Source: a virus
Strand: one strand, 5' to 3'
Virus record (IMG/VR): IMGVR_UViG_3300001460_000019
Span: 1-46,874 of that record
Length of the DNA stretch: 46,874 bases
The translations under genes were made by a program, and so were the position numbers. Below the pieces are notes generated by a model. That model made no database searches and was not told the DNA's origin. It saw only the letters and a program-made list of their open reading frames with translations. Shown piece after piece: positions 15,143 to 43,707 of this stretch (the first letter of the stretch is position 1; the number at the start of each line of letters is the position of its first letter).

Positions 15143-15745
15143 ATGGAAAAAATATTAAAATATACTTCAGCATATAAACCAATAGTTGAAGACTTTCTCA
15201 TACAAGCAGTAATAGAAGGAAGTTCCGGAACTTATAAAAAAGAAAAATTTAACATAGATGAATTAGATGATAAAAGCAGTTTGTGGTTAGCATTAGTTGA
15301 TAACGAAGTTGCTAGTATAAGTTATGCTGAAAGAAGTTTTATCACAGGCACTCCAGAGTCTATTAGGAAATGCAGATATCATATTCTTAAAAAACACAGG
15401 CATGGACGTTATGGATTTAAAATGATGAAGCATCAAATTGCTTGGGCAAAAGACAATGGGTTTAAACATTATTACTGGACACATGATGTTAAAGATGTAG
15501 CAATTAATAAATTATTTCAGCATAAGAAAAAATACGTAGGTGGCGATAACAGTTGGTTTGAAGATGAAGATTATAAAAAGCTAACACTTGAAAAAGATCT
15601 AGTGTTTCACGATAAGCCAAAATCAAATATGATACAGTTTATCTATAGCTATTACATTGATCCAAATTATAAATGGAAACCAACCAACGCAGTAATATTG
15701 CATCAACATAATGGAACTATAAAAGATGTTTCAGAGGTATTATGA
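15143..15745 (+). CDS. GNAT-like N-acetyltransferase
   Basis: I choose the ATG at 15143 (200 residues), just after the SDR stop. An earlier start at 15098 would overlap the SDR by 44 nt. The pattern SLWLALVDNEVASISYAE, then a KHRHGRYGFKMMKHQIAW helix like the acetyl-CoA loop, then GFKHYYWTHDV and AINKLFQHKK, fits a GNAT fold. The pyrophosphate-binding loop is RHGRYG instead of the usual Q/RxxGxG/A, so acyl-CoA use is likely but not certain. It overlaps the next gene by 4 nt. Confidence 0.6.
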   Translation: MEKILKYTSAYKPIVEDFLIQAVIEGSSGTYKKEKFNIDELDDKSSLWLALVDNEVASISYAERSFITGTPESIRKCRYHILKKHRHGRYGFKMMKHQIAWAKDNGFKHYYWTHDVKDVAINKLFQHKKKYVGGDNSWFEDEDYKKLTLEKDLVFHDKPKSNMIQFIYSYYIDPNYKWKPTNAVILHQHNGTIKDVSEVL

Positions 15746-17523
15746 AAACAGTACAATTAGGCACAGTATCGGTTATACATGAAACATGGTTGCCATATGC
15801 CGCGGCATGCCTTATTAGTTACTGTAATAAGATTCCAGAAATAAAATCAAATTATAAATTCAATGATCCAATATACAAATATAAACCTGTAGAAGAATAT
15901 ACAGAAGAGTTTAAAAATATTGATGTATTTGGGTTAACTTGTTACGTATGGAACCAAGCATATAATGATCAATTGATGAGTCATTACAAAGATGTAAACC
16001 CAAATGGTATTACAATGTATGGTGGACCTAATGTACCTGAAGATCCTAAACTTGCAGAAAAGTTTGCAAAAGATCATCCTTATATAGATATATTTTGGGT
16101 AGGTCCTGGTGAAAAGTTAATTAGTAAGTTTTTACAAAATATTGATACTCCAATGAGTACACATGACGGTAGTTTTGGGTTAGGATGGAATAACGTAGAG
16201 GTAGGAAAAAAATTATATCAAATTGAAACTCATGAAATGCCTACACCATATTTAGATGGAGTATTTGATTCTATACTTGCTGAAGAAAAAAGAGTTAAAG
16301 CATCATTTGAAACTAATCGTGGTTGTCCTTTTAAATGTGCATTCTGCGATTGGGGTGGACAAGCAAGATCAAAAGTTACAAAGTTTGATATGGATCCTGT
16401 AAATGAACAATTAGACTTTATATACAAACACACCAACATAGCAGAAGTAGAGATACTTGATGCTAACTTTGGTATGTTACCTAGAGATTTAGATGTCGTT
16501 AAAAAAATGAAAGCAAATAAAGAAGCAACAGGCAATAATCCTAAAATATCTTATAGTGGACTTGCAAAGAATGGTAGTAAATGGTTACCAGAGATTATCG
16601 ATATAATACATAACAATTTAGATGCTGATCAACGTAATTTGAAAGTAAGTTTCCAAACACATGCAAAAGAAACATTAAAAGTTATTAACAGAGCAAATAT
16701 TAACAATGATAAACTATTACCTTTAATTGATAGTTTTAAGTCTAAAGGATTACCAGTAACATCAGAAATGATTATTGCTTTACCTGGCGAAACAGCAGAC
16801 AGTTGGTTATACTCATTGAATAAAGATTATGAGCTTGGTATTGATTTTATGCGATCATACTTTTTAAACCTAGTACCTAATACAGAATTATATACAGATA
16901 AGTTTCAAAAAGAACACAAGGTAGAATCTAAGATACTTGCATTTCCTTATTCGTTTTCAGGACTAGGATATAAGCAATTGCATAATCATCCAGAGTACAG
17001 AGATGAACGTAGCACATATGAATTTGAAGAGATAGAAATTATGCATAAATGTTTTTCATATGATGAAGATGAAATTGTTCGTATGTTTGACTATTGGTGG
17101 TTCTACCATAACTTTCATAACTCAAGAGCATTAAATCATACTATGAAAGATTTATTTGATACTGGGCATGATATAGAGTTCCAAGTTAAATGGTTTTATA
17201 AGCATTTAGATAAAATGCCTTTAATGATTAAACTAGTAGAAAAGAACAGACAAATAATTAGAAATATATTTAAAGATGAGCCAAGAACAGAAGTAAAAGA
17301 TTTAGCAACATATTTGTATTTTTCAAGATGTTTACGTGCAGATGAAATATATCAGTTTTGGCATAACCAAGATCAGTTTGTAGAAGATTTGTCAAAAGTA
17401 TTTCCAGAGAAGTTGGTTAAATATGATATATCAGAATGGAAAAAAGAATTTGATATGAGTATGTATGGTACAGACGCTCGTATTAAACCAACTGAGATTG
17501 TTGCTATAGGGAGCGAAAGATAA
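15742..17523 (+). CDS. B12-binding-domain radical SAM protein
   Basis: This 593-residue protein has an N-terminal Rossmann-like cobalamin-binding domain (about residues 1-150; VFGLTCYVWNQAYNDQLMSH, TMYGGPNVP and VGPGEKLI) followed by a radical SAM core with C195, C199 and C202 (CPFKCAFC). An MIIALPGETADSW segment is typical of the B12-rSAM class. The DxHxxG base-off motif is not seen, so cobalamin would bind without His ligation, or the domain may be vestigial. Members of this class often methylate unactivated carbon or phosphorus in natural products. Start and stop overlap both neighbours. A BtuB-like receptor is encoded just upstream. Confidence 0.85.
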   Translation: MKTVQLGTVSVIHETWLPYAAACLISYCNKIPEIKSNYKFNDPIYKYKPVEEYTEEFKNIDVFGLTCYVWNQAYNDQLMSHYKDVNPNGITMYGGPNVPEDPKLAEKFAKDHPYIDIFWVGPGEKLISKFLQNIDTPMSTHDGSFGLGWNNVEVGKKLYQIETHEMPTPYLDGVFDSILAEEKRVKASFETNRGCPFKCAFCDWGGQARSKVTKFDMDPVNEQLDFIYKHTNIAEVEILDANFGMLPRDLDVVKKMKANKEATGNNPKISYSGLAKNGSKWLPEIIDIIHNNLDADQRNLKVSFQTHAKETLKVINRANINNDKLLPLIDSFKSKGLPVTSEMIIALPGETADSWLYSLNKDYELGIDFMRSYFLNLVPNTELYTDKFQKEHKVESKILAFPYSFSGLGYKQLHNHPEYRDERSTYEFEEIEIMHKCFSYDEDEIVRMFDYWWFYHNFHNSRALNHTMKDLFDTGHDIEFQVKWFYKHLDKMPLMIKLVEKNRQIIRNIFKDEPRTEVKDLATYLYFSRCLRADEIYQFWHNQDQFVEDLSKVFPEKLVKYDISEWKKEFDMSMYGTDARIKPTEIVAIGSER

Positions 17524-20407: not shown

Positions 20408-20448
20408 ATAGAATGCAAGTGGTAAATATATAAAGTACACACTTTATA

Positions 20449-20486: not shown

Positions 20487-21734
20487 ATGATTGATCTAAA
20501 AAACAATAAAACTTACTGTCCATACCTTTTTCGGGGTGCTGTCATGCAGGTTCCTGATAGCTCTATTGTTCCATGCTGTCGATATAAAGATGATTCATTA
20601 GAATATTCAAAGTCTTTTGATAATGGATACAATAAGATATGGGATACGTTAAGAAAAAAATCATTAGAAGGTAAACAAATTAAAGGATGTTGGAGATGTT
20701 ATCAAGATGAACAAGCTGGTATAAAATCAATGCGTGAAAGTGCTATTGATACAAATGGTGAAATAAGTTATGATTATAAACAAAACCCTAAATATGATGA
20801 AACACAGTTAGAGTTTCTTGAAATACAAACAGGTAGGTATTGTAATTTAAAATGTAGATCATGTGGACCAAAACTATCAACAACATGGGATGAAGATTTA
20901 GATAAAGATAGTGAACTAATAAAAAACTTTTTTGGAAATGAACACCACGAATATATTAATATAAAACAACTTCCAAAAACAAATCAATCGTTATCGACAA
21001 TATCATTTGATACAGTAAAACATTTAAAAAATGTAAAAGCAACAGGCGGTGAACCTTTTTTAAATGATCAATTTCAAACTTTTCTAGCTAATTTAGTTAA
21101 GTGGGATATAGCAAAAAATATACATTTAGAAGTTTTTACAAATTGTTCTTTCTTTCCAAAAGATCAATATAGAAAACTAATACCAAATTTTAAAAGTGCT
21201 AAAATAGATCTAAGTTTAGATGCAATTGAAAAACGAGCAGAGTTTTTAAGAAAAGGTTCGCAATGGGATAAGGTTACAGAATCAGCTACAAAGTGGGTAG
21301 ATGTAAGTCAACAGCATACAAACGTTTCAGTTGTAATTGGACATACCTTAACAATATATAATGTTTTGTATCTAAAAGAGTTTATTAATTGGATAGCTAA
21401 TTATTTTCCAAAAAGTATTATAACAAAAAACTTTTTAGATTTACATTTAGCACAAACACCACAGTATCTGTCATTATCAAATTTAAGTATATCTAATCAA
21501 TCTAAAATTAAAAATTTAGTATTACAACATAAAGATCAGTTATTGTTAACATATCAAAGTAATAAGGAATTAATATCTATTATAGAAAAAAGTTATGATA
21601 AAATATTAAAAGGATTAAATTATGCTTCTAGTGATCTGTCGACAGAGTTCTTTGAGAAAGCAAATCTAATTGATAGTGTTCGTAATGAGAATTGGCGTAC
21701 TACTTTTTTAGAACTATCAGAGGCATTGACATGA
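20487..21734 (+). CDS. Twitch-domain radical SAM protein
   Basis: This 415-residue protein has an unusual order. An N-terminal Cys-rich twitch/SPASM-like region (C11, C30, C31, C68, C71) comes before the radical SAM core with C119, C123 and C126 (CNLKCRSC), and a TGGEP segment marks the SAM-binding strand. Proteins of this N-to-core order are found in marine phages and bacteria, with unknown substrates. It heads the plus-strand run to 32714. Paralogues are at 21731, 35850 and 39833. Confidence 0.85.
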   Translation: MIDLKNNKTYCPYLFRGAVMQVPDSSIVPCCRYKDDSLEYSKSFDNGYNKIWDTLRKKSLEGKQIKGCWRCYQDEQAGIKSMRESAIDTNGEISYDYKQNPKYDETQLEFLEIQTGRYCNLKCRSCGPKLSTTWDEDLDKDSELIKNFFGNEHHEYINIKQLPKTNQSLSTISFDTVKHLKNVKATGGEPFLNDQFQTFLANLVKWDIAKNIHLEVFTNCSFFPKDQYRKLIPNFKSAKIDLSLDAIEKRAEFLRKGSQWDKVTESATKWVDVSQQHTNVSVVIGHTLTIYNVLYLKEFINWIANYFPKSIITKNFLDLHLAQTPQYLSLSNLSISNQSKIKNLVLQHKDQLLLTYQSNKELISIIEKSYDKILKGLNYASSDLSTEFFEKANLIDSVRNENWRTTFLELSEALT

Positions 21735-22960
21735 GCAAACAATCAAATACATTTTGTATAATGCCATTTATACACATGAACCTAAAGCCAAAAGGCTTTG
21801 TAAGTGCTTGTTGGCGTAATCATGATTCGCTAGGACATTATGGAGATAAAACTTTAAAAGAAATATGGAACAATGACAACTATAAAAAAATACGTGATAA
21901 TTTAATGAATGGAGTACAGCATGACGGCTGTAAAAGTTGTTGGGATATGGAAAAAGCAAATGTCATATCAACTAGGCAACAATGTAATCAAGACTATGAA
22001 AAGCATATTCCTCAAGTATTAAAAGAAGTAAATGACGGTGAATTACCTATGAACGTTAAAACAATTGAATTACGTTTTGGTAATGTGTGTGATCTAAGAT
22101 GTAGACATTGTTCTTCGATATACAGTTCAACTTGGGCAGTAGCAGTTAACAAGCATGATGAGGTTAAACGTTTGTTTGACAAATATCAACTAACTGAAAC
22201 CAGCACATGGAGAGGCATAGCAAAATTACCTATAGAAACATTTAATCAAGTAGTAAATGACATAGGACCAAGAGTAGAAGAAATAATTATAGCAGGTGGC
22301 GAGCCTTTGATACAGCCACAGCATTATGATGCATTAGAAAAACTTTTACCCTATGCTCATAACATTACACTAGAATATAATACAAATTTAAACAATATAG
22401 TATTAAAGGATAAGCATATTAGTGACCTTTGGAGTAAATTTAAAAAGATAAACTGTCGTGTAAGTTTAGATGGTGATAAAAAAATACACAGCTATTTAAG
22501 AACAGGAAGTAATTTACAAGCAGTTGAAGATAATATAAAAACATTAAAATCTAAATTATCACAAGAAGTTTTTAATTTAACAACAACATGTACAGTTTCG
22601 TTGTACAATATTTCTAGATTTGATGATATTATTGATTATTATACATCTTTGGATTGTTCCTTTCATTGTAGTTTGGTACAATACCCAGAAGCTCTAAATA
22701 TTCAATATATACCAAAGAAAATGAAAGACATTATAACAAAAAGAGTTTATAATAAAATAGAAAGTTTAGAAAATATTAAGGAGAACCGTTTGGCCAAAAT
22801 AATTAAATGGTCAAACTATGTATTAGATTATATGAATAATACTGATATAAACAATGATACATTGCCAAAATCAACAAGGGAATATATTGAAACCATGGAT
22901 AGATTAAACAAAACTAATTTTCTAGAAGTGTATCCAGAATTTAAGGACTATTGGCAATGA
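21731..22960 (+). CDS. Twitch-domain radical SAM protein
   Basis: The start is the ATG at 21731, overlapping the preceding TGA (409 residues). A longer reading from 21692 lies inside the previous gene. N-terminal Cys residues C9, C27, C67 and C70 form the auxiliary cluster region. The radical SAM core has C120, C124 and C127 (CDLRCRHC) and AGGEPLIQPQHYD. SCW and CWRN echo the upstream paralogue. It overlaps the next gene as ATGA. Confidence 0.85.
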   Translation: MSKQSNTFCIMPFIHMNLKPKGFVSACWRNHDSLGHYGDKTLKEIWNNDNYKKIRDNLMNGVQHDGCKSCWDMEKANVISTRQQCNQDYEKHIPQVLKEVNDGELPMNVKTIELRFGNVCDLRCRHCSSIYSSTWAVAVNKHDEVKRLFDKYQLTETSTWRGIAKLPIETFNQVVNDIGPRVEEIIIAGGEPLIQPQHYDALEKLLPYAHNITLEYNTNLNNIVLKDKHISDLWSKFKKINCRVSLDGDKKIHSYLRTGSNLQAVEDNIKTLKSKLSQEVFNLTTTCTVSLYNISRFDDIIDYYTSLDCSFHCSLVQYPEALNIQYIPKKMKDIITKRVYNKIESLENIKENRLAKIIKWSNYVLDYMNNTDINNDTLPKSTREYIETMDRLNKTNFLEVYPEFKDYWQ

Positions 22961-24117
22961 GTGATTTAAAATGGAGTGAATATGATTTTACACAAATTCC
23001 GTACAACAATCTCGTACGTGTTGGACAACGTACTATGCTTTACAGGGATCTTTTTACAGTCAGTTGGCTTCTTGGTAGGTTTTGTAATTACAGGTGTAGC
23101 TACTGTTGGCCGTATGCTAGAAGTGACAGAAAAGATCATAGGCCTACTGAGCTTTGTCTTGCTACCATTGACGAGATTAAAAGACAAGCAAGAGATAGAG
23201 GATTTAATAGTTTCCACTTCAGTCTTTCTGGAGGCGAGCCTACGTTTCATCCTGGTTACCTTGATATTCTTCAGCATCTTGCTGATGATACAAAAAACAC
23301 TAATTATACTTCTGTCCATATGACAAGTAATTGCAGTAGAAACATGAAATGGTTTGAACAATATGTTAAAGCAGTCGCACCGTTCCATAGAGCCAGTATC
23401 ACGGCTTCATACCACAGGGAACACGTTAACTCAAAAGAAAAAAGAGCAGATTTTGCCGATAAGTTATGCTTCGCACAAGAACACGATGTCCAAGTTACAA
23501 TTAACCAAGTTATGGTTCCAGAATGGTTTAATGAACTATACGAGGAATCATTATATTTCCACAATAGAGGTATTAACGTTACGCTCAAAGCTCAAAGCGA
23601 TCCAACAGCATCAGAAGTTGTCCATGGCTACACGAAAGAAATGCTTGACAAGTTACATAACGGAATGCCACAACGTGGATTTACTGAAGAAAAAAATCAA
23701 CATGTAAAAAGACCAAAGCCAACGTTTAAAATAGATGATGATCGTACTATGCAAAAACAAACATACTCGGAAGGAGTACCACAACACTTTCAAGTTGAAT
23801 TTAGAGACAAAGAAAACAATCCTTACTTTATGGATCAAGCAGAAAGATTTAACGCATTTAATTTTAATAAATTTGAAGGATGGGAATGCTCGTCAGGGTA
23901 TAGATCAATTATTATTAGAGAACCAGATGGTAGTATAAAAAGAAGTTACAGTTGTCACGATAAGCCTCTTGGAAATATTGAAACAGGATTTAAACTATTT
24001 GATAAGCCACAGACTTGTATTTCACAAAGCTGTGTATCAAGTGCTGATTCAAAAATACCAAAGAGAGCCAAAGGAACTAAATTACCATTATGGCCAGGAG
24101 ATAAAACATACGAATGA
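22957..24117 (+). CDS. Radical SAM protein of a different subfamily, with atypical codon use
   Basis: The start is the ATG at 22957, in ATGA overlap with the previous stop (386 residues). The radical SAM motif is C43, C47 and C50 (CNYRCSYC), followed by SLSGGEPTFHP. C-terminal Cys residues (WECSSGY, YSCHD, TCISQSC) may hold another cluster. It lacks the N-terminal twitch region of its neighbours. The first 130 codons use CTT/CTC for Leu and more C in third positions than neighbours, which are almost all TTA. This suggests later acquisition. Confidence 0.8.
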   Translation: MSDLKWSEYDFTQIPYNNLVRVGQRTMLYRDLFTVSWLLGRFCNYRCSYCWPYARSDRKDHRPTELCLATIDEIKRQARDRGFNSFHFSLSGGEPTFHPGYLDILQHLADDTKNTNYTSVHMTSNCSRNMKWFEQYVKAVAPFHRASITASYHREHVNSKEKRADFADKLCFAQEHDVQVTINQVMVPEWFNELYEESLYFHNRGINVTLKAQSDPTASEVVHGYTKEMLDKLHNGMPQRGFTEEKNQHVKRPKPTFKIDDDRTMQKQTYSEGVPQHFQVEFRDKENNPYFMDQAERFNAFNFNKFEGWECSSGYRSIIIREPDGSIKRSYSCHDKPLGNIETGFKLFDKPQTCISQSCVSSADSKIPKRAKGTKLPLWPGDKTYE

Positions 24118-24776
24118 GTAAAAACAGTTTATACAGAGATCTAATAACATTTGGAGCACAGTATCCTTTAAAACTTCGTATGAAGGATTCTTCTGCATTT
24201 ATTGATTGGACTGAAAAACAGTTTGATTATGTACAGTATAATCCAAGAAAAAGTTATCCTAGAGAAGGTTTAAGTATTACAAGTTTAGATGGCGGACTAT
24301 CTGGTAGACCAGATTTAGATAGTGTATATGAATATAATAAAGAAAATGGAACAGAGTGGACCGAAAGAGACTTTAAAACACCAACGCCGGTATTTGATTG
24401 GCAGTCATTACAAGAATGTTTAGAACCATTTAAAGGACATATATTTAGAACACATATTTTAAAATTAAACACAGGTGGATTTTTTCCTCCACATAGAGAT
24501 CATCCAGATGAATATGATTTTCATCAATCAAATAAATTAATTTTTGATACATTTAGATTAATAATGCCGTTAAAGAATTGTGACACTCCTGGTATGACAT
24601 TTATATTAGAAGATAAAGTTTTACAATGGCAACAAGGAATCTTATATTTTGTTGATACTGCTAAAATGCATTATCTTTTTAATACAACACCTGATCCTGC
24701 GTATTGGTTAGTTGTTAATGTTGATGTAAATGAAGAAACACTTGCAGGTGTGTGTAAAAATATGAAGCAAAGGTAG
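24114..24776 (+). CDS. 2OG-Fe(II) oxygenase-like protein (AspH-type), Arg replaced
   Basis: This 220-residue protein has H127-R-D129 (FPPHRDHP) and H186 (AKMHYLFNT) in the right order and spacing for the double-stranded beta-helix fold. The usual 2OG-binding Arg (RxS) about ten residues after the distal His is absent, and the sequence reads AYWLVVNVD. It could bind the co-substrate by another residue, or be non-hydroxylating. It overlaps the previous gene by 4 nt. Confidence 0.65.
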   Translation: MSKNSLYRDLITFGAQYPLKLRMKDSSAFIDWTEKQFDYVQYNPRKSYPREGLSITSLDGGLSGRPDLDSVYEYNKENGTEWTERDFKTPTPVFDWQSLQECLEPFKGHIFRTHILKLNTGGFFPPHRDHPDEYDFHQSNKLIFDTFRLIMPLKNCDTPGMTFILEDKVLQWQQGILYFVDTAKMHYLFNTTPDPAYWLVVNVDVNEETLAGVCKNMKQR

Positions 24777-24778
24777 AT

Positions 24779-25645
24779 ATGAAAATAACAAACGAAACAT
24801 TTGGTAAAAGTAAAGCAATACATTCACCAACCGATATGGCTATTAAAACTATGCTATCTAGTACATATGGTTCTTATATTGAAAGTACAAACGAGAATGA
24901 TAAAACACCATCTGTAAAAAGACGTGTACGTTGGGAAAACTGTCAAAATCAAATTAGAAATTATTTAAATCCGCTTATTGACTTATCGGAACTAAGATGG
25001 GGGTATCCTACAAATGGTATACATGAAAGTATTGATTGGATGTGTAATAAAGTTACGCAGTATCAAGTATTTGAAGGAGAATATAGATACCCAACATTTA
25101 TAAAAAAACCAGTACATGTTGCTAAATCTGTTAATGACTTATTATCTAGTGTACCTTTGTATATGAGTAATCCATTTAGTGCAACAGGAAACTTTGATAA
25201 AAGATATGATGAAGTTGGTGAAAGACAACAATGCCCAATATATTTAGATTTAGCATTTGCTGGAACCACAGGACCACATAAAATAAAATTATATGAAAAT
25301 GTTAAAGAAGTATTTTGGAGTTGTTCAAAACCATATGGGCTTGGATTATTAAGAGCAGGTGTACGTTTTGTTAGAGAACCAGAATTAGTACAACAAGAAT
25401 TGCAAGGAGTTGGATATTTTAACCATGCAATAATTGATGTATTTAGAGCGGTAATAATAAGTAGTAGTGTGTTTGCAAAAAAAGAAGAATATAACAAAAT
25501 GCAACAAACATTATGTAAACAATTTAACTTACAACCAAGTGATTCATATCTGTTAGGAACTACAACAGATGCTGAATGGGATAGATTTAAAAGAGAAAAT
25601 GGTATAAACCGAGTGTGCTTAACACCAGCATATGAAAGGATTTAA
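24779..25645 (+). CDS. PLP-dependent aminotransferase-like protein (fold type I), short
   Basis: Motifs fall in the order of a class I/II aminotransferase. GYPTNGIHESIDW near residue 75 is the PLP-phosphate region. SNPFSATGN (131-138) stands for the NPxNPTG loop. YLDLAF gives D157 for the PLP nitrogen. FWSCSKPYGLGLLRAG puts K184 in the position of the Schiff-base lysine, followed by the GLR-G element. The protein has 288 residues, about 100 shorter than typical members, so the C-terminal small domain is reduced. It probably transfers an amino group to an oxidised intermediate made by its neighbours. The call rests on motif order alone. Confidence 0.6.
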   Translation: MKITNETFGKSKAIHSPTDMAIKTMLSSTYGSYIESTNENDKTPSVKRRVRWENCQNQIRNYLNPLIDLSELRWGYPTNGIHESIDWMCNKVTQYQVFEGEYRYPTFIKKPVHVAKSVNDLLSSVPLYMSNPFSATGNFDKRYDEVGERQQCPIYLDLAFAGTTGPHKIKLYENVKEVFWSCSKPYGLGLLRAGVRFVREPELVQQELQGVGYFNHAIIDVFRAVIISSSVFAKKEEYNKMQQTLCKQFNLQPSDSYLLGTTTDAEWDRFKRENGINRVCLTPAYERI

Positions 25646-25647
25646 TT

Positions 25648-26010
25648 GTGTACAATAGTAAAAAACCAACAGCACAAATGCTAGGAAGATTTCAACCATG
25701 GCATGATGGGCATACAGCTTTATTTAAAAAAGCAATGAATGAAACTGGGCAAGTGGTAATAATGATACGTGATATGGAAGTTAATAACAGTAATCCATAT
25801 GCAGGAGGTCAGGTTGGTTTAAAAATACAAGAGCATTTATCAAAAGAAGGATACGTATTTAAACACGATTATGATATTATTAGTGTTCCGAATATTGTAG
25901 ATATTAGTTATGGAAGAGATGTAGGATATACGTTTACTAAACATGACCTTGGTGAAGAAATTCATAAAATTAGTGCTACACAAATAAGAAAAGGATATTT
26001 AAAAGAATGA
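25648..26010 (+). CDS. Cytidylyltransferase-like nucleotidyltransferase
   Basis: This 120-residue protein starts at a GTG, 2 nt after the previous stop. It has GRFQPWHDGHTALF (residues 13-26) with the HxGH active site (H19, H22), and a C-terminal KISATQIRKG, the ISxTxxR motif of the nucleotidyltransferase superfamily (NMNAT, cytidylyltransferases). It should activate a phosphorylated substrate with NTP, releasing pyrophosphate. The substrate, such as a sugar-, alcohol- or nicotinamide-phosphate, cannot be told. Confidence 0.8.
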   Translation: MYNSKKPTAQMLGRFQPWHDGHTALFKKAMNETGQVVIMIRDMEVNNSNPYAGGQVGLKIQEHLSKEGYVFKHDYDIISVPNIVDISYGRDVGYTFTKHDLGEEIHKISATQIRKGYLKE

Positions 26011-26525
26011 AAGTAGCAATTACTGGACACACAAAAAGAATTGGTAAGGCAATCTATGATGCATTTCCAAATAGTATTGGATTAAGTAAATCACAAGGAT
26101 TTGATATTACTGATAAAAATTCAAGAACTAAAATAGTTCATGCTATTAATGATTGTGATGTGTTTATTAATAATGCACATGAAGGATTTGGACAAGTAGA
26201 ATTGTTAAATGATGTTTTTACAGCATGGAAAGATTATAGCAAATTAATAATTAACATTGGTGTTGATACAGTTCCTTATAGTAACTGGCAAGTAGTGCAC
26301 CAGCAATATCCTGTAGAGAAAGTTGCATTACATTCGCAAGTTGAATTGTTACACAATCAACAACGTAAATGTAAAATTACAACACTAGGACTAGGGTATG
26401 TTGATACAGAATTTAACAAAGACTATGATGGAGCAAAGCTGTCATATAAAGATATAGTTGAAACAATAAAATGGATTATTGATCAATCATATGAAGTAAA
26501 ACAATTAATGGTGAGTGCAAAATGA
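26007..26525 (+). CDS. Short-chain dehydrogenase/reductase-like protein, compact
   Basis: This 172-residue protein has TGHTKRIGKA (residues 6-15), FINNAH (53-58) and a Y101PVEK105 catalytic pair. It is a shortened paralogue of the SDR at 14479. It overlaps the previous gene by 4 nt and the next by 4 nt. NAD(P)H-dependent reduction of an unknown carbonyl is expected. Confidence 0.8.
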   Translation: MKVAITGHTKRIGKAIYDAFPNSIGLSKSQGFDITDKNSRTKIVHAINDCDVFINNAHEGFGQVELLNDVFTAWKDYSKLIINIGVDTVPYSNWQVVHQQYPVEKVALHSQVELLHNQQRKCKITTLGLGYVDTEFNKDYDGAKLSYKDIVETIKWIIDQSYEVKQLMVSAK

Positions 26526-28006
26526 TAACTTGGGGTATATGTGGTTTAGGTCATGATGGATCTTTATCTGTAATAAAAGACAATCAAATAGTATTTGCTG
26601 GTCATACAGAAAGATACACAAGAATAAAAAATGATCCTTACTTGTGCGATGAAATAATAAATGAAGCATTAGAACATGGTGATCCAGATAAGGTTATATG
26701 GCATGAAAGACCTTGGCTAAAAAAACGTAGACAAATGGTTTCTGGGCAATGGAATGAATTATTTCAAACGTCTAACTTACCATCACAATATATGAAACAG
26801 TTCCAACATATGGTACCACATAAGTTAGAATATGTAGAACATCATAAAGCACACGCGGCCGCAGGAGCATATACATCACCTTACAATAGTGCCTGTGTTA
26901 TTGTTGCTGATGCTATTGGAGAGTTTGATACTATGTCAATATGGGAATATACAGCACCAAACGGATTAAAAAGATTAAAGACATACCAATATCCACACTC
27001 GTTGGGGTTATTGTATTCAGCATTCACACAAAGAGTTGGATTAAAAGCAAACGAAGAAGAATACATTTTAATGGGCATGGCGGCCTATGGAGAACCAAAG
27101 TATGCAAAAGATATTGAAAAGCATTTCTTTGATAAAAAAGATCCTTTGAAACTAACAATGAATGTTCATGCAGGTATTGAGGAATGGATGGCACACATGC
27201 CGTTGATTGATCATCAGTTTTCATATGACGTTGCGGCATCAATTCAACAAGTTATTGAAAAGAAAATTCTTACACTATTTGAAATAGCACGTTCATATAG
27301 TTCACAAAAAAACATTGTATGGATGGGAGGAGTTGCACTTAATTGTGTAGCTAATTCATTAATGTATAATAAAAATCCAAATATATGGATTATGCCTAAC
27401 CCAGGCGACGCAGGTAATTCATTAGGAGCCGCGGCAATAGGTTATGGCGATAAGTTAGATTGGCAAGGACCTTTCTTAGGTACAAATATTGAAGGTGATT
27501 ATCCTGTAGATTCTGCCTGTGATGCATTATTAAATGGAAATATTATTGGTGTAGCAAGTGGCAAAGCAGAGTTTGGACCAAGAGCATTAGGTAATAGAAG
27601 TCTACTTGCTGATCCTCGAGGCACTGAAATAAAAGATAGAGTAAATGACATTAAAAAAAGACAAAAGTTTAGACCATTTGCTCCTGCTATTCTTGAAGAA
27701 CATGTTCATCAATATTTTACAATGCCAGGAGGTATTACAGAATCACCATATATGCAGGCAGTTGCTATATGTAGAAAGCCACAAGAGTTTCCAGCAATAA
27801 TACATGCTGATGGTACTTCTCGTGTACAAACAGTAACACAAAAAGAAGCACCAGGATTTTATAATTTAATTAAAAAGTTCTATGATCAAACAGGATGTCC
27901 AATATTATTAAACACTAGCCTAAATATTAAAGGTGAACCGTTAGTAAACACAAGACAACATGCAGACGCATTTGAACAACAACATAAAGTGAGGGTATAT
28001 TCATGA
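26522..28006 (+). CDS. NodU/TobZ/CmcH-type O-carbamoyltransferase
   Basis: This 494-residue protein contains both domains of the family. The N-terminal Kae1-like part has GHDGSLSVI, VEHHKAHAAAGAY (H107, H108, H111) and GGVALNCVANS. The C-terminal YrdC-like part has FGPRALGNRSLLADPR and KKRQKFRPFAPAI. It transfers carbamoyl from carbamoyl phosphate (through a carbamoyl adenylate) to a hydroxyl of a sugar or antibiotic. Length is normal to slightly short. It is the most natural-product-like gene in the operon. Confidence 0.9.
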   Translation: MITWGICGLGHDGSLSVIKDNQIVFAGHTERYTRIKNDPYLCDEIINEALEHGDPDKVIWHERPWLKKRRQMVSGQWNELFQTSNLPSQYMKQFQHMVPHKLEYVEHHKAHAAAGAYTSPYNSACVIVADAIGEFDTMSIWEYTAPNGLKRLKTYQYPHSLGLLYSAFTQRVGLKANEEEYILMGMAAYGEPKYAKDIEKHFFDKKDPLKLTMNVHAGIEEWMAHMPLIDHQFSYDVAASIQQVIEKKILTLFEIARSYSSQKNIVWMGGVALNCVANSLMYNKNPNIWIMPNPGDAGNSLGAAAIGYGDKLDWQGPFLGTNIEGDYPVDSACDALLNGNIIGVASGKAEFGPRALGNRSLLADPRGTEIKDRVNDIKKRQKFRPFAPAILEEHVHQYFTMPGGITESPYMQAVAICRKPQEFPAIIHADGTSRVQTVTQKEAPGFYNLIKKFYDQTGCPILLNTSLNIKGEPLVNTRQHADAFEQQHKVRVYS

Positions 28007-29217
28007 AACCAAAAAATACAAAAGTCGCAATGATAGGTTGCGGTAAACTAGGACAAGACTGTGCAGAAGTTATGGCACAACAATATATGGTTGAAGGCTA
28101 CGATGTAGAACCAAGAACACCAGAAAATTTTGCAATGAAGACATCAATTTCTGAAACAGTAAAAGACAAAGATATTGTTTTTATTGCGGCGCCAACACCA
28201 CATGATCCACGTTATGATGGGTCAACACCAACAGCACACTTAGAGCCAAAAGATTTTGATTATACAATTGTAAAAAATATTTTAAAAGAAGTTAATAAGG
28301 TTGTTAACAAAAAACAATTAGTAGTTCTTATATCAACAGTACTACCAGGTACAACAAGACGTGAGCTTGAACCTTTAATTACAAATGCACGTTTTGTTTA
28401 TAACCCGTACCTAATTGCAATGGGGTCAGTAAAATGGGATATGGTAAATCCAGAAATGATTATGATTGGTACTGAAGATGGATCAAAAACTGGTGATGCA
28501 AAAGAGCTTATAGATTTTTATAAACCAATGATGCAGAATAGTCCTAGATATGTAGTTGGTACTTGGGATGAATGTGAATCAATTAAAATTTTTTACAACA
28601 CCTTTATTTCAGCAAAGATTGGTTTAGTAAATATGATTCAAGACGTAGCAGAAAAACAGGGTAATATTAATGTTGATGTAGTAACATCTGCACTTGCATA
28701 TTCTGATATGCGTATTATGGGTCCAAAATATATGACAGCAGGTATGGGCGATGGCGGTGCTTGTCACCCACGTGATAACATTGCATTACGTTGGATGGCA
28801 GACCATCTAGGCTTAGGTTACGATTTGTTTGATGCTATTATGGGTGCTAGAGAAATACAAGCAGAAAATCTTGCTAAAAAATTAATGTCGTATAACTTAC
28901 CAATTGTGATTGTAGGTAAAGCATATAAGCCTCACGTGCCTTACACTAATGGATCATATAGTTTGCTTATTGGACATTACATTGAAAAAGCAGGTAGAAC
29001 ATTATATTATAAAGATGAGCATACAGGTGATCAGCCACCAAAAGATTTAGGTAACGCAGTTTATCTACTTGCACATAATCCAAACGTAACATACGGTACA
29101 GATGACACTTCTAAATATGATTTTCCAAAAGGATCAATTATTGTTGACCCGTGGAGACAATGTCCACAGTTAGAAGGTTGCACAGTAATTGAGTATGGTA
29201 ACACAAGGAACGTATAA
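28003..29217 (+). CDS. UDP-glucose/GDP-mannose dehydrogenase-like protein
   Basis: This 404-residue protein has an N-terminal NAD-binding GxGxxG (IGCGKLG, residues 11-17). It has STVLPGTTRREL, which is the family STVPVGTT element, and a catalytic Cys at C254 (GDGGACHPRDN, versus GGSCFPKD). A C-terminal domain carries GKAYKPHVPYTNGS, matching the family GlyKxFKPxTDD pattern only loosely. Oxidation of a nucleotide sugar or sugar-like alcohol to an acid is likely, although the changed Cys loop hints at a different substrate. It overlaps the carbamoyltransferase by 4 nt. Confidence 0.8.
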   Translation: MKPKNTKVAMIGCGKLGQDCAEVMAQQYMVEGYDVEPRTPENFAMKTSISETVKDKDIVFIAAPTPHDPRYDGSTPTAHLEPKDFDYTIVKNILKEVNKVVNKKQLVVLISTVLPGTTRRELEPLITNARFVYNPYLIAMGSVKWDMVNPEMIMIGTEDGSKTGDAKELIDFYKPMMQNSPRYVVGTWDECESIKIFYNTFISAKIGLVNMIQDVAEKQGNINVDVVTSALAYSDMRIMGPKYMTAGMGDGGACHPRDNIALRWMADHLGLGYDLFDAIMGAREIQAENLAKKLMSYNLPIVIVGKAYKPHVPYTNGSYSLLIGHYIEKAGRTLYYKDEHTGDQPPKDLGNAVYLLAHNPNVTYGTDDTSKYDFPKGSIIVDPWRQCPQLEGCTVIEYGNTRNV

Positions 29218-29979
29218 ATGGCAGTTAATAAAGAAACAGTAACTTGGGTTAAACACTGGAACGATAAAACGTTTTCATTTAAAACTACAAGAAACTATCC
29301 AAACAAATTTAATAACGGTGAGTTTGCAATGATAGGTATGGAGCATGAAGGTAAAAAATTAATGAGAGCATACTCAATTGCATCAGCCAATCATGAAGAT
29401 TATTTAGAATTCCTATCTATTAAAATAAATGATGGACCATTAACATCAAAACTACAACATATTAAAGAAGGTGATGAGATACTAATTAATCCTAGATCAA
29501 CAGGTACACTTGTAATTGATTACCTATTACCTGGTCGTAATTTATACTTGATTGCAACAGGTACAGGTCTTGCACCATTTCTAGGAATAATAAAAGATCC
29601 TGCGACATATGAACGTTTTGAAAAAGTTATCTTAACTCATACAGTACAGTATGAAAACGAGTTAGCATATCATGAGCCTCTTAATTGGTTTAATGAAGAA
29701 TGGAAAGAATTAACACTAGGAAACTTTAAGTATTTCAATACACTAACGCAACAAGACTGGCCACGCAAAGGTAGAATTACTGAATGGATAAAGAATAATA
29801 AATTGTTTTCTGAGACTGCTGGACAAAGTTTAGATACAAAAGAAGATAGATTTATGATATGTGGATCGCAAGGTCTTAACAAAGATTTAATTGAACATTT
29901 TGAGTCTTTAGGTATGCAGGAAGGTAACACATCCATTCCAGGACAATTTGTAGTAGAGAAGGCATTTGTGCAAAGATGA
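29218..29979 (+). CDS. fpr: Ferredoxin/flavodoxin-NADP+ reductase
   Basis: This 253-residue protein has the FAD-binding RAYSIAS (R50-Y52-S53), ATGTGLAPFLGI (NADP pyrophosphate region), FMICGSQ, and ends VEKAFVQR as in bacterial Fpr. It passes electrons between NADPH and ferredoxin or flavodoxin. Within this operon it can supply the radical SAM enzymes, the desaturase at 30625 and perhaps the flavodoxin at 37483. It starts at the stop of the previous gene. Confidence 0.9.
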   Translation: MAVNKETVTWVKHWNDKTFSFKTTRNYPNKFNNGEFAMIGMEHEGKKLMRAYSIASANHEDYLEFLSIKINDGPLTSKLQHIKEGDEILINPRSTGTLVIDYLLPGRNLYLIATGTGLAPFLGIIKDPATYERFEKVILTHTVQYENELAYHEPLNWFNEEWKELTLGNFKYFNTLTQQDWPRKGRITEWIKNNKLFSETAGQSLDTKEDRFMICGSQGLNKDLIEHFESLGMQEGNTSIPGQFVVEKAFVQR

Positions 29980-30641
29980 TAGTATTCACTCCTTTAGATA
30001 TACCACCAATTCCAAACAAACAATCGATACTAGATAATTTCATCGGTGGAGAAAAGTTTGCATGGTGGAAAGAAGAAACACTATTAGGGGTAAAAGATCT
30101 TTCCAAACCATTTGGTGAAATGCAGGAATGGAATGCTTCTGCTAAACAAAAGTATCCAGAATTACTAAATTGGATAGATACATACTTTCCATTTGAATAT
30201 AAATTTTACGTAAGAATAGCACGGTCAACAGGGAATGTTGCTCCACATGTGGACGGTAATTATGTTAAAGCACCACACCCACATCATATGACAATTACTC
30301 AAGAAATGTTTGATCATCAACGAGCAAATGAACCTATAGGATATAGATTTGTAGTAAGCGGATCACGTGATAGCTTGTATATGTGCAAAGAATATGATTA
30401 TAGTCAAGATATGAGTAATCAGCTTAAACATTTTTGTACAATACCAGAAGAAACAGATGCGTTTTTAATTAATAATTGTACACAGCCACACGGTGTTGAT
30501 GTACAAGAAGGTATCGATGACGATCGTATAGTTGGGTTTGTACTAGGAAAAGTGATTAAATCAGAACATCAAAACCTAATAAAGCAAAGTGCGAATAAAT
30601 ACAATACACAGGTTATAAAAAAGAATGAGCTACGAGTATAA
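29976..30641 (+). CDS. AspH-like 2OG-Fe(II) oxygenase
   Basis: This 221-residue protein has RIARSTGNVAPHVDGNY with H91 and D93, NNCTQPHGVD with H172, and a possible R184 in DDDRIVGF. It has an extra HPHH run near residue 101. The proteins at 31367 and 38363 look related. It overlaps the reductase by 4 nt and the next desaturase by 17 nt. Confidence 0.65.
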   Translation: MIVFTPLDIPPIPNKQSILDNFIGGEKFAWWKEETLLGVKDLSKPFGEMQEWNASAKQKYPELLNWIDTYFPFEYKFYVRIARSTGNVAPHVDGNYVKAPHPHHMTITQEMFDHQRANEPIGYRFVVSGSRDSLYMCKEYDYSQDMSNQLKHFCTIPEETDAFLINNCTQPHGVDVQEGIDDDRIVGFVLGKVIKSEHQNLIKQSANKYNTQVIKKNELRV

Positions 30642-31383
30642 ATTAAAACTAATTTTATTAACTAACCACTTACTGCTTATAGTAGGGTTATTATACGCAG
30701 ATCTAAGCTGGCTATGGCTATCTCTTATTGGCTGGATTATGTTTGGTAAAGTCGGTGGAGAAATAGCTTTACATAGATACCTATCACATAAAAGTTTTGA
30801 AACATCTTATTGGAAATCAAGAATGTTAATCATATTAAGTATGTTTAACTGTTTTGGATCACCAATTGCTTGGTGTGGTGTACACAGAAAGCATCATGCA
30901 GTTCCTGAAACTAAAGAAGATCCACATGGTGGTCAACCAGCATGGAGAATATGGACAACTTTTTGGGAACCATTTACAATTGAAACAAAATTTGTAAAAG
31001 ATTTAATTAAAGATAAATGGATTAAATTTATACATCAACATTACTTAAAGTTATTACTATGTTCTTATGGAGCCATTGCTTTAGTTGATTGGCGTATTGC
31101 AGTATTTTTAATATCAATTCCAGCAGTGATAACTTTTCATAGTGCTGGTGCTGTTAATGTATTGTGTCATAAATGGGGTTATAGATTATTTAATACACCT
31201 GATGGTAGTACAAATAATACATGGGTAAATCTAATAACACTTGGTAGTGGACTACACAATACACATCATCAAAAACCACAGAGTTGGACGAATAAAGAAA
31301 AATGGTGGGAAATAGATTTTCCAGGATGGGTTATAAAAACTTTTTTATTAGATAAGAGGTATAAGGATGAAGAAGGACTATAA
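30625..31383 (+). CDS. Membrane fatty acid desaturase, second copy
   Basis: This 252-residue protein has the three His boxes HRYLSH (H50-H55), HRKHH (H87-H91) and HNTHH (H211-H215), with hydrophobic segments between them. It resembles the 13725 desaturase in layout, but the loops differ (GGEIALH versus GMTMTYH), so the two are distinct subfamilies. The ferredoxin reductase two genes upstream is a likely electron source. It overlaps both neighbours by 17 nt. Confidence 0.9.
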   Translation: MSYEYKLKLILLTNHLLLIVGLLYADLSWLWLSLIGWIMFGKVGGEIALHRYLSHKSFETSYWKSRMLIILSMFNCFGSPIAWCGVHRKHHAVPETKEDPHGGQPAWRIWTTFWEPFTIETKFVKDLIKDKWIKFIHQHYLKLLLCSYGAIALVDWRIAVFLISIPAVITFHSAGAVNVLCHKWGYRLFNTPDGSTNNTWVNLITLGSGLHNTHHQKPQSWTNKEKWWEIDFPGWVIKTFLLDKRYKDEEGL

Positions 31384-32137
31384 AGACTTTCGTAACGTAT
31401 GTTACTTACCAATCGACTTGCCTTACCAAAAAATTAATTTAGACGAGTTAGAAGTATTCCATGATAGAAACTACATGTGGCCACCGGATGTTGTTACGGA
31501 ATCTTATTCAGCTAACAACTTAGAAAATGCTCCATATGTAGAAACTGCACCACACGAATTATGGCGTATTGTTTGTTTACTTGGACAGCTCGATGAAGAA
31601 GACTTTGGCAAAGCAGATAAAGTTAGAGAAAGTTGGTTGAATCGTTTAACTAGAAAAAGAAAAGTAAATATTAATCCTGCGTTACCAAAAGAACTATACG
31701 GAATAATTAAACTAATAGAACAATTACCAATACAATGCAATCATGCAGAACTAATTAGACAACGCAGAGATGTTCCATTGCATATGGATGTGCCAGGTTT
31801 ATCATCTTCTGATCATAGTACTTTAAGACCTTTAGAGCCTTCAGGATACAGATTGTTAATTAATGATGTACGTGAACCTAGTTTATTTTGGACAGAACGT
31901 TTAGAGCAACAAGATAAAAAAGATTATAGATTTATGGAACTACCAATGGACACAAATACATTTGTATTAAATGAATTAGATAGACCACATGGTGCTAAAA
32001 AAATTGAACAACAAAAGTTTGTTATTACTACTACAGGATCTATTGATCCTAATAAACATTTAGATACGTTAGTTCGTAGTTGGAACAAATATAAAGACTA
32101 TGCAATAGAGTTTGGAGATAAACATGAATCACTTTGA
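31367..32137 (+). CDS. AspH-like 2OG-Fe(II) oxygenase family protein
   Basis: This 256-residue protein has DVPLHMDVPG with H139 and D141, and ELDRPHGAKK with H208. The expected Arg is replaced by Lys (K217, KFVITTTGS). The N-terminal 120 residues are an extra helical region. It is related to 29976 in the second half. A changed co-substrate site is possible. Confidence 0.6.
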   Translation: MKKDYKDFRNVCYLPIDLPYQKINLDELEVFHDRNYMWPPDVVTESYSANNLENAPYVETAPHELWRIVCLLGQLDEEDFGKADKVRESWLNRLTRKRKVNINPALPKELYGIIKLIEQLPIQCNHAELIRQRRDVPLHMDVPGLSSSDHSTLRPLEPSGYRLLINDVREPSLFWTERLEQQDKKDYRFMELPMDTNTFVLNELDRPHGAKKIEQQKFVITTTGSIDPNKHLDTLVRSWNKYKDYAIEFGDKHESL

Positions 32138-32714
32138 GTACTTTGAACTACCACAATTAAAAATAGATAATAAATCAAACATTGATGCTATTGACCAATT
32201 AAAAGATAAGTTTCAAAAAGTTGATGTAGCCTATGCAGGACACCAAGTAACTTATGAAGAAGGTATTAAAGAAGATAAAAACGATCATGAATGGGTATAC
32301 TATCAAGATGTTGACCATGGAGCAGATTTTAATGGTAGTCCATTAATTGAAAAGATAGTAGAAGACACTTGTAAAGTTTTAAATATGCCTACAAGTCTTA
32401 TTGTTAGAAAACAATACACAAAGATGTCTCCTGGTTGGTTTTTAAATATTCATCGAGATGTACAACGAATGGTAGCTTTACTTGTAGAATTTAAACCTGC
32501 AGGTGGTTCTATTAGTTGGTATAATAATAAAAGAGAACATACAAAAACACTGTATTACAACCACCCGGTAGTAGTAAACACAGGACAATTACACAGTGCT
32601 AAAGGCGGCGACACAATGACACGTTATGGGTTTCAACTTGACTTTGATTATGGTATGACTATAAATGATGTGTATGAGTATTATAAAAGCTCACCATTGT
32701 TTGTCCAACAGTGA
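32124..32714 (+). CDS. 2OG-Fe(II) oxygenase-like protein
   Basis: I choose the ATG at 32124, with GGAG 7 nt before it. A TTG at 32112 is possible but has no ribosome site. The product is 196 residues, with H110-R-D112 (FLNIHRDVQRM), H157 (TGQLHSAKGG) and R167 (TRYGFQLDF). It overlaps the previous gene by 14 nt and is the last gene of the long run that begins at 20487. A short palindrome follows at 32718-32735. Confidence 0.7.
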   Translation: MNHFEYFELPQLKIDNKSNIDAIDQLKDKFQKVDVAYAGHQVTYEEGIKEDKNDHEWVYYQDVDHGADFNGSPLIEKIVEDTCKVLNMPTSLIVRKQYTKMSPGWFLNIHRDVQRMVALLVEFKPAGGSISWYNNKREHTKTLYYNHPVVVNTGQLHSAKGGDTMTRYGFQLDFDYGMTINDVYEYYKSSPLFVQQ

Positions 32715-32717
32715 GCC

Positions 32718-32735
32718 TTAATAATTAATTATTAA
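32718..32735. terminator. A+T palindrome between convergent genes
   Basis: TTAATAATTAATTATTAA is a perfect 18-bp palindrome between the end of the plus operon (32714) and the end of a minus gene (32732). It may act as a weak bidirectional terminator. There is no G+C stem. Confidence 0.35.
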
Positions 32736-33004
32736 TCGAATGATAAATGGTCAGTAGTTTCTACCATTGGTAATGCGTTGCCTTCGCCGTCAGTTTGGTC
32801 AATGTTTAGTGCGTCGTATGCCGCTCTATCACAATTCCATTCTTCACTGATAACAAGATCATCACCAACCATCTCATATTTGAAATTGACTCTGCCGTTA
32901 ACTGATGCCCAAGTAATATAGTCTGTGAAATCGTTATTTTCTAAACGACCTCTCATAGTATCTACTGCATCTGCAGAACCGTTTGTTTTCCAAGATATTA
33001 ACAT
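32732..33004 (-). CDS. Small hypothetical phage protein
   Basis: This 90-residue acidic soluble protein ends in ETTDHLSFD. The ATG is preceded on the minus strand by a GGAGAG ribosome site and a late motif at 33047-33055. It shows an alternating beta-rich pattern (VNGRVNFKYEMVGDDLVISEEW is split by charged turns). The function is unknown. Late expression suggests a structural or assembly helper. Confidence 0.6.
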   Translation of the reverse strand: MLISWKTNGSADAVDTMRGRLENNDFTDYITWASVNGRVNFKYEMVGDDLVISEEWNCDRAAYDALNIDQTDGEGNALPMVETTDHLSFD

Positions 33005-34779: not shown

Positions 34780-35829
34780 TTATTTTTGATATTCTACTTT
34801 TGCTCTAGAGCCGTGCCCGCCACATTCTATCACACATCTTTTAATATATAAATTATGATCAGTATCCCACGAGTCTTCTAATACAGAATCATAGTATTCG
34901 TGACCTAGTATATTATCAATTGAGTTATGTCTTAGATCATTCCAGTTTTTTCCATATTGTTCTTCAATTTCAAACAACTTATCTCTGCCTTGTTTTTGTA
35001 CACTCGGTCTTATAGAATCATGATACATATCACCAATCCAACAACAAGGCCATAATTTCATGTCATGTGATATGTAAGCTCTTTGCTCATGTATTAATCT
35101 GCAACTGATATCTTTAAATTTTGTATTCTTTACTGTTTCTGATTCTATTTTCTTAGTTACATTAAATTTAACTTGAGCTTGTGAATGTTGAATTTCTTTT
35201 TTATTAGTTGTAATAGTTGTTTTATTAGTTTTCCATGGAGCCTTAATTTGATTTCTTGAAGATCTCCTTACTCTAAAATTAAATCCTAGCTCTTTTGCTA
35301 GTTGTCTTGCATTATCTATATCACTAGTATTATGATCAAACTCAATATAAGACCATGTCGCTCTGCCTTGCCCTTTTGAATATGCTGTAATATTTTTTAT
35401 AAGTTTATCCCAAATAACATTAACACGATACATATGATTTGTATCCTTGTAGCCATCTATATTAAAACCAACAACAAGTTTGTGATTGTATTTAAAACTT
35501 AACTGAGATAAATCATGCCAAAACTTTTCTGTTTGCATACCACCATTTGTATCTAACCAAACTTTAGAAGGATTATTTTCTAAAATATATTTGCAAATTA
35601 AAATTATATCTTTAGCCATTCCTGGATCACCATATACTCCAGAAAAACCAAATGCTCTATCTTTAATTGTGTTTGGTGGAAATATATGTTTAAATTGTGA
35701 CAACGAAATTTCTAACATCTTTAAGTCAGGGTGTGTATCTCCATTATGAGTACGTGAACATCCAGGACATCTAGCATTACACTTAGATGTTATTTCTATT
35801 TCATACTGTTTTATTTTTTCTAAATCCAT
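34780..35829 (-). CDS. Radical SAM/SPASM protein
   Basis: This 349-residue protein is a paralogue of the proteins at 4910 and 44126, with C17, C21 and C24 (CNARCPGC), a GVYGDPG segment, DGYKDTNHMYRVN, and C-terminal Cys (ISCRLIHE, WPCCWIG, KRCVIECG) for an auxiliary cluster. It is transcribed from a sigma70-type promoter that lies within the end of the adjacent gene and whose start would be about 2 nt before the ATG. The substrate is unknown. Confidence 0.85.
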   Translation of the reverse strand: MDLEKIKQYEIEITSKCNARCPGCSRTHNGDTHPDLKMLEISLSQFKHIFPPNTIKDRAFGFSGVYGDPGMAKDIILICKYILENNPSKVWLDTNGGMQTEKFWHDLSQLSFKYNHKLVVGFNIDGYKDTNHMYRVNVIWDKLIKNITAYSKGQGRATWSYIEFDHNTSDIDNARQLAKELGFNFRVRRSSRNQIKAPWKTNKTTITTNKKEIQHSQAQVKFNVTKKIESETVKNTKFKDISCRLIHEQRAYISHDMKLWPCCWIGDMYHDSIRPSVQKQGRDKLFEIEEQYGKNWNDLRHNSIDNILGHEYYDSVLEDSWDTDHNLYIKRCVIECGGHGSRAKVEYQK

Positions 35830-35837
35830 ATACTAAT

Positions 35838-35866
35838 ATTATAATCCTATTATAGATACTTGTCAA
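35838..35866 (-). promoter_or_regulatory. Promoter of the 34780 radical SAM gene, minus strand
   Basis: Minus-strand TTGACA (35861-35866), 17-bp spacer, TATAAT (35838-35843). This is a perfect pair of hexamers. The expected start near 35831 leaves almost no leader before the ATG at 35829. The promoter overlaps the end of the 35850 gene. Confidence 0.65.
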
Positions 35867-39583: not shown

Positions 39584-39586
39584 CAT

Positions 39587-39663: not shown

Positions 39664-39664
39664 T

Positions 39665-39739: not shown

Positions 39740-39742
39740 AGA

Positions 39743-43524: not shown

Positions 43525-43543
43525 AACATAAGGATTAACTAAA

Positions 43544-43699: not shown

Positions 43700-43707
43700 G
43701 TTATTGT

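Follow-up and report, generated by a model that had tools for sequence, protein, structure and literature searches.

A run of 14 genes at positions 20487–32714 of the virus record IMGVR_UViG_3300001460_000019 has, in our estimate, an even chance of being a nucleotide-sugar and glycan tailoring island of a T4-like phage, whose product, a carbamoylated and oxidised sugar that is probably also aminated, would become part of a glycan on the envelope or the virion. The sequence studied, here called the window, covers the first 46.9 kb (46,874 nucleotides) of this 75,415-nt record, and genes are named by their start coordinates. The observations comprise the gene content, packing and conservation of the run, its catalytic residues, the co-occurrence of its genes at the family level and a conserved late-promoter motif. 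Open reading frame (ORF) listing and translation show that the 14 ORFs lie head to tail in the same direction, between a divergent gene upstream (20363, minus strand) and a convergent gene downstream (32732–33004). With the start of the second gene placed at ATG 21731 and not at 21692, seven of their 13 junctions are 4-nt overlaps, three are longer overlaps (17, 17 and 14 nt), and at the other three the genes are 0–2 nt apart. A preliminary description of this DNA had proposed a coupled unit of 14 genes, which the ORF check and the overlaps bear out. Chance packing is untenable, because the synteny is kept in four independent relatives. The genes, including three radical S-adenosylmethionine (rSAM) enzymes and several oxygenases of the 2-oxoglutarate (2OG) type, are as follows.

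20487–21734, plus strand: N-terminal-twitch rSAM enzyme (NF033640, 243 bits; 41–82% identity in relatives).
21731–22960, plus strand: N-terminal-twitch rSAM enzyme (NF033640, 322 bits).
22957–24117, plus strand: signature rSAM with a C-terminal Cys group (Radical_SAM, 48 bits).
24114–24776, plus strand: 2OG/Fe(II) oxygenase-like, Asp/Arg hydroxylase-like (PF05118, 18.8 bits, below cut-off).
24779–25645, plus strand: fold-type-I pyridoxal phosphate aminotransferase-like (family profile against HisC structures, 2.9e-5).
25648–26010, plus strand: NMNAT/cytidylyltransferase-like nucleotidyltransferase, accessory (PF01467, CTP_transf_like, 25 bits).
26007–26525, plus strand: short oxidoreductase resembling short-chain dehydrogenases/reductases (SDR; weak SDR matches).
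26522–28006, plus strand: O-carbamoyltransferase, NodU/TobZ/GdmN family (PF02543 and PF16861; N and C domains, 129/188 bits).
28003–29217, plus strand: UDP-glucose/GDP-mannose dehydrogenase (UGDH)-like (PF03721/PF00984; N-terminal and central domains, 60/60 bits).
29218–29979, plus strand: ferredoxin/flavodoxin-NADP reductase-like, Fpr-like (PRK10926, 124 bits, under the equivalog cut-off).
29976–30641, plus strand: 2OG/Fe(II) oxygenase-like (no match to a hidden Markov model, HMM; invariant HxD...H...R in the alignment).
30625–31383, plus strand: fatty-acid desaturase family, FA_desaturase, accessory (PF00487, 53 bits).
31367–32137, plus strand: 2OG oxygenase-like, accessory (distant homologue of 29976; 7e-9 to 29976 paralogues).
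32124–32714, plus strand: 2OG oxygenase-like, accessory (HxD...H...R by eye only; orthologue only in L030/L108).

Profiles and alignments upheld nearly all of the enzyme classes named in the preliminary description, the calls for the nucleotidyltransferase and the SDR being weak. The products of 20487 and 21731 both pass the curated cut-off of NF033640 (N_Twi_rSAM, 170 bits) and carry the twitch Cys and CxxxCxxC, of which the latter is invariant, and the N-terminal Cys invariant or near-invariant, in alignments of N_Twi rSAMs. Gene 26522 encodes both Pfam domains of an O-carbamoyltransferase, retains the metal-site HxxxH and matches GdmN at 7e-54; its closest relatives are GdmN, NovN and TobZ, which are antibiotic-tailoring enzymes. 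The product of 28003 matches UGDH at 1e-20 and has the NAD-binding and central domains and the catalytic Cys in GGxCxPxD (GGACHPRD aligned with GGSCFPKD), with a score under the TIGR03026 subfamily cut-off (134 versus 190 bits) and no Pfam match for the C-terminal UDP-binding domain. By itself 24779 gave no direct HMM match; its family profile matches histidinol-phosphate aminotransferase structures, and in the family alignment Asp157 is invariant and Lys184 near-invariant. An HxD...H facial triad followed by Arg is the signature of 2OG-Fe(II) oxygenases, and these residues of 29976 (His91-x-Asp93, His172 and Arg184) do not vary among nine homologues, the most distant of which is at 18% identity. 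Four oxygenase-like proteins had been reported, of which 29976 and 31367 stand by alignment, while 24114 is below its cut-off and 32124 carries a motif seen by eye.

The four independent close relatives are L009/L032, L010–L011/L029, L012/L030 and L031 (L010 and L011 appear near-identical, and the short L010 contig starts after gene 1). The order of the 20487-, 21731-, 22957-, 24779-, 26007-, 26522-, 28003-, 29218- and 29976-type genes is kept in all four. L031 has another oxygenase in place of 24114. Genes 25648, 30625, 31367 and 32124 vary among the relatives and are accessory, with 25648 missing from its operon position; the inserted genes include a further N_Twi rSAM, a PP-loop protein and additional paralogues of 29976. 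The preliminary description had taken a lack of co-occurrence in related phages as an argument against one pathway, and most of the genes were found together in all four relatives.

A gp23 capsid protein is encoded by two relatives (328 kb and 172 kb), which therefore place the group in the T4 superfamily; gp23 itself is outside the content of the 75-kb record. The 328-kb relative has 15 N_Twi rSAMs. In the window, ATAAATA is depleted overall (18 seen versus 40 expected), and 17 of the 18 copies precede an ORF start on their own strand by no more than 60 nt (background 4.2%, P ~6e-23). The window motif reads RATAAATAY, is of T4 type and is nearly confined to these positions; NATAAATA is the late promoter reported for the T4-like cyanophage S-PM2 (PMC2984593). 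Judged from the gp23-type capsid of the relatives together with the late-promoter enrichment in the window, the phage group is a member of the T4 superfamily. At the head of the operon the following copy is found.

20422–20428, plus strand: degenerate T4-type late promoter, GTAAATA versus ATAAATA, 58 nt upstream of gene 1.

An exact ATAAATA stands about 60–65 nt ahead of the first operon gene in 4/4 relatives, and the window copy differs by one base. Because the motif is conserved at the operon head in the relatives, a single late-type promoter probably drives the operon, its window copy being degenerate. An internal ATAAATA (30595–30601) looks promoter-like for 30625 but is ambiguous, since the same bases encode an N-K-Y run that members of the 29976 family often retain. 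A scan for sigma-70 promoters gave no excess over shuffled sequence.

The neighbourhood of related genes points to sugar chemistry. Synechococcus phage Bellamy has an orthologue of 28003, gp227 (71.5% identity), whose neighbours are glycosyltransferases, a carbamoyltransferase, a nucleotidyltransferase and two NAD-epimerases, and Pelagibacter phage HTVC008M has the gene run carbamoyltransferase-NadE-UGDH. Among 65 dereplicated viral loci anchored on UGDH, N_Twi rSAMs occur in 42, carbamoyltransferases in 19, NAD-epimerases in 18 (203 bits), DegT aminotransferases and cobalamin (B12)-binding rSAMs in 14 each, and NeuB-like proteins in 6. The density of N_Twi genes per kb is 0.129 around UGDH and 0.163 around 22957, against 0.011 around the control gene PhoH (38/62 versus 3/15 loci; Fisher p 0.008); the control comprises 15 loci only, anchored in partly different phages, so that the ~12-fold enrichment around UGDH is approximate. 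The rSAM arrays are in this way tied statistically to nucleotide-sugar genes and point to new radical sugar enzymes. As judged by gene content, neighbours across loci favour nucleotide-sugar and glycan chemistry more than the antibiotic or DNA-modification options of the preliminary description.

The rSAM genes extend well beyond the operon. The 75-kb record holds 13 of them (4910, 15742, 20487, 21731, 22957, 34780, 35850, 39833, 44126, 60382, 61583, 62854 and 65833, the last called by motif and homology), as well as about ten 2OG-oxygenase-like genes. Three features are used below.

4910–5908, plus strand: rSAM of the same family as 34780, the third type of a triad present in 13/13 Bdellovibrionota loci.
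34780–37010, minus strand: pair of a triad-type rSAM (34780) and an N_Twi rSAM (35850).
39833–41029, plus strand: N_Twi rSAM (NF033640, 354 bits).

Gene 22957 is 63–95% identical across 80 kept viral loci on aquatic phage contigs, and the neighbouring rSAMs are mostly at 20–40%. Among 59 dereplicated viral 22957 loci, N_Twi-cluster rSAMs are present in 57, with 254 copies. The same loci contain a short SDR (37), a QueC-like PP-loop protein (29), a 24779-type aminotransferase (21), a desaturase (16) and a B12-rSAM (14); three 2OG/Asp-Arg-hydroxylase clusters occur in 28, 12 and 11 loci, the 24114 cluster in 12. The carbamoyltransferase and UGDH clusters are found in nine and five loci, respectively. 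A search of 50,697 phage records gave no match to 22957, and for the N_Twi query 39833 the matches were limited to Vibrio phages K566/K567 and a marine single-cell virus. Host-recognition clusters of T4-like phages are cassettes of variable content that flank tail-fibre genes. The content of the island varies among relatives, and the array adjoins probable fibre genes in L089–L095; in the studied record the fibre-like ORFs, at 54.9–59.8 kb, are non-adjacent. One 457-kb IMG/VR contig (L097) has few phage genes near its 22957 homologue and may be of cellular origin although it is listed among viruses.

These distributions bear on the single pathway of the preliminary description. The coupled unit and the recurrence of aminotransferase, rSAM, carbamoyltransferase and UGDH at the family level in unrelated phages agree with it, but a self-contained pathway of 14 genes does not hold: four genes are accessory, the UGDH-carbamoyltransferase pair occurs without annotated rSAMs in Bellamy and HTVC008M, and the rSAM core is mostly without the pair. 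The island may instead be a mosaic of three separate modules that are transcribed together but serve different products: the rSAM core, the pair of UGDH and carbamoyltransferase, and the desaturase/oxygenase tail. That the modules are found apart in other phages and that 4/14 genes are accessory would fit such a mosaic, which we nevertheless consider unlikely in view of the retention of most genes, together and in order, in all four independent relatives and of an N_Twi-UGDH co-localisation far above the PhoH control.

For the tailoring island, the substrate, the order of steps, the acceptor and the role are those that we infer as follows. The UGDH-like 28003 would oxidise C6 of an activated sugar; installing amino and keto groups, or exchanging one for the other, would fall to 24779 and the short SDR 26007. 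The three rSAMs (20487, 21731 and 22957) may perform C-H chemistry on the carbon skeleton, such as dehydrogenation, epimerisation or deoxygenation, while the 2OG oxygenases would hydroxylate and 26522 would O-carbamoylate the sugar. The Fpr-like 29218 is a candidate electron supply for the iron-sulfur enzymes. Late in infection, the finished sugar would be transferred to the host envelope or a virion glycan, altering recognition or blocking superinfection.

Several points weigh against this scheme. No confirmed glycosyltransferase lies inside the operon, and the nearest candidate, 53386–54765, is without Pfam or PDB support. This protein and its relatives share a TEKI(F/Y)KP motif that resembles fucosyltransferases by eye; an 18-sequence profile matched no such structure, and a glycosyltransferase identity is therefore not claimed. 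As UGDH and carbamoyltransferase are missing from most 22957 loci, these two enzymes and the rSAM core may act on different molecules. Proteins are frequent targets of Asp/Arg-hydroxylase-like folds. Finally, the structures nearest to the N_Twi model in Foldseek (21731, AF2; pLDDT 91.5) are peptide maturases (thioether-forming, SkfB, SuiB) and viperin, the sugar-acting DesII being only at rank 23; TM-scores are low throughout, with a TMq of at most 0.40. The model of 22957 (pLDDT 77) has a TMq <0.45 to viperin, MoaA and anSME, and fold searches with both models pointed to no substrate. A viperin or defence role was rejected for 22957, the likeness being that of a generic rSAM core (NF038283, pVip, 40 bits versus a cut-off of 180). 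In the UGDH-anchored surroundings, one UGDH was observed as a fusion with a protein resembling 53386 (L150:9998–12328), and L140:15189 was discarded as an amidinotransferase, being without Pfam support.

Because the closest N_Twi folds are peptide maturases, modification of proteins or peptides is the main rival. Twitch rSAMs would crosslink or epimerise residues of virion or host proteins and 2OG enzymes would hydroxylate them, each N_Twi paralogue having another target. The Asp/Arg-hydroxylase likeness of several oxygenases and the single conserved 22957 alongside many divergent N_Twi paralogues are consistent with it, as is the ranking of maturases of ribosomally synthesised and post-translationally modified peptides among the nearest folds. 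By contrast, it leaves no place for the UGDH, carbamoyltransferase, nucleotidyltransferase, epimerase and DegT neighbours; no equivalog cut-off for such maturases was exceeded, and a conserved small precursor-like ORF was not noticed, no systematic search having been made. Overall, it is rather unlikely, with a modest share of the probability.

DNA or nucleotide hypermodification, as in phages with 5-carbamoyloxymethylcytosine, is highly improbable. Carbamoyltransferases do modify DNA in some phages (PMC8670742), and the nearest folds of 22957 include the nucleotide-acting viperin and MoaA. A homologue of thymidylate synthase or dCMP hydroxymethylase was, however, found in 0/7 records (the studied one and six related, including those of 328 kb and 172 kb; the records may be fragments), and the lack of a thymidylate-synthase-type partner is therefore evidence against DNA carbamoylation. 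Furthermore, where contigs are unmodified, the genes next to their carbamoyltransferases are reported to be of kinds such as glycosyltransferases (PMC8670742).

Two features upstream of the operon concern vitamin B12.

11280–13668, plus strand: DUF6580 membrane protein and BtuB-like TonB-dependent receptor (PF20221, 151 bits; PF00593/PF07715).
15742–17523, plus strand: cobalamin-binding rSAM, KedN5-like (NF033712, 155 bits, under the cut-off of 700).

The six best solved relatives of the TonB receptor are all BtuB (1.6e-21), and the two genes are probable cobalamin uptake genes, with DUF6580 as a lead for a B12 component. Gene 15742 lies in the same strand run about 2 kb downstream, and a late-type promoter of the B12 genes is located at 11225; plausibly, the phage imports cobalamin for its own radical enzyme. 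An Rfam scan found tRNAs only and no cobalamin riboswitch. The KedN5-like rSAM with B12 uptake genes nearby, the two desaturases and the SDR could also serve a lipid or natural-product-like small molecule, e.g., a hydroxylated, desaturated and C-methylated membrane lipid. This is improbable, given that the desaturases are accessory and that acyltransferase, polyketide synthase or non-ribosomal peptide synthetase and acyl-carrier genes were not recognised in the operon.

Elsewhere in the record, six tRNA genes are located at 39507–39819 and 43438–43784 (Ile, Met, Gln, Arg, Leu and Arg). Two small proteins resemble SET domains by eye, unusual in a phage (19244–19645, minus strand; 45812–46123, plus strand), and two small kinase-like proteins in tandem resemble, by eye, aminoglycoside phosphotransferases (APH) or lipopolysaccharide (LPS) kinases (41602–43055, minus strand). 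A sulfotransferase-like P-loop motif, EPRSGSNS, was seen by eye at L007:364–1143 (record 47238–48017, minus strand), with no Pfam match.

Homologues of 22957 were also found by a genome scan in Bdellovibrionota metagenome-assembled genomes (55–64% identity), on contigs of up to 937 kb with housekeeping genes nearby, e.g., that for seryl-tRNA synthetase in L192; further matches (L190, L191, L201, L206 and L213) are probably misbinned phage contigs. The 22957-type, N_Twi and 4910/34780-type rSAMs occur together in 13/13 cellular loci examined (within L192–L211), the same set as in the phage. By contrast, these loci are chromosomal and have no UGDH or carbamoyltransferase match within +/-10 kb. 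Seven Bdellovibrionota genomes have 8–20 N_Twi genes each, against 0 in 14/14 control genomes, and the 22957 gene is in only 8/60 relatives of genome G001. In a 73-taxon tree, a branch with weak support (84/54) separates the viral 22957 sequences from the rest and places them next to Bacteriovoracaceae-type sequences, and a single old transfer between phages and bacteria is possible. Tentatively, and at less than even probability, the three rSAM types may constitute an undescribed biosynthetic system that predatory Bdellovibrionota share with phages of the T4 superfamily. Its product would be an envelope glycan, or a polymer related to one, without chemical precedent; phages would diversify the system with carbamoyl, oxygenase and UGDH modules and supply its radical enzymes with vitamin B12 through an importer that they encode themselves.

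A comparison with known phage systems reveals partial resemblances. Interchangeable rSAM modules are known from Campylobacter phages CP220/CPt10 (PMC2853527), which are likewise T4-like and rich in rSAMs (11–12 per genome), with contiguous overlapping genes. The CP220 module has an amidinotransferase and two proteins of nucleotide-diphospho-sugar-transferase fold, whereas no UGDH, carbamoyltransferase or 2OG genes are annotated in the stretch examined; these phages have no match to 39833 or 22957, and the 4910 query matches weakly (26% over 55%). A 183-kb T4-like marine genome has 12 rSAMs (PMC5332604), and pelagimyophage host-recognition clusters carry rSAM cassettes and LPS genes (PMC7029224). 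Phage Mosig EXVC030M encodes at 54.7–70.7 kb, beside tail fibres, a carbamoyltransferase, MoaA-like rSAMs, aminotransferases (one 30% identical to 24779), Asp/Arg hydroxylases, a desaturase, TauD and nitroreductases; it differs in gene order, has no 22957 or 39833 (N_Twi) match, and no UGDH is annotated in the stretch examined. The glycan cassettes of Bellamy and HTVC008M share a UGDH orthologue (71.5% and 50%, respectively) and a carbamoyltransferase, but have NadE-like and methyltransferase genes in place of annotated rSAM, 2OG or aminotransferase genes. Reports of phage modules rich in rSAMs go back to 2010 but assign them no function, and here a conserved core, common in uncultured T4-like phages, is defined. 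The question is now testable in culture, with Mosig on HTCC1062, with Campylobacter phages, and with Bdellovibrionota if a cultured strain has the triad. In the open literature searched, such modules are already known; apparently undescribed are the 22957/N_Twi/4910 core, its Bdellovibrionota presence and its association with UGDH loci, and likewise the carbamoyl/UGDH/2OG version of the rSAM island with a phage BtuB.

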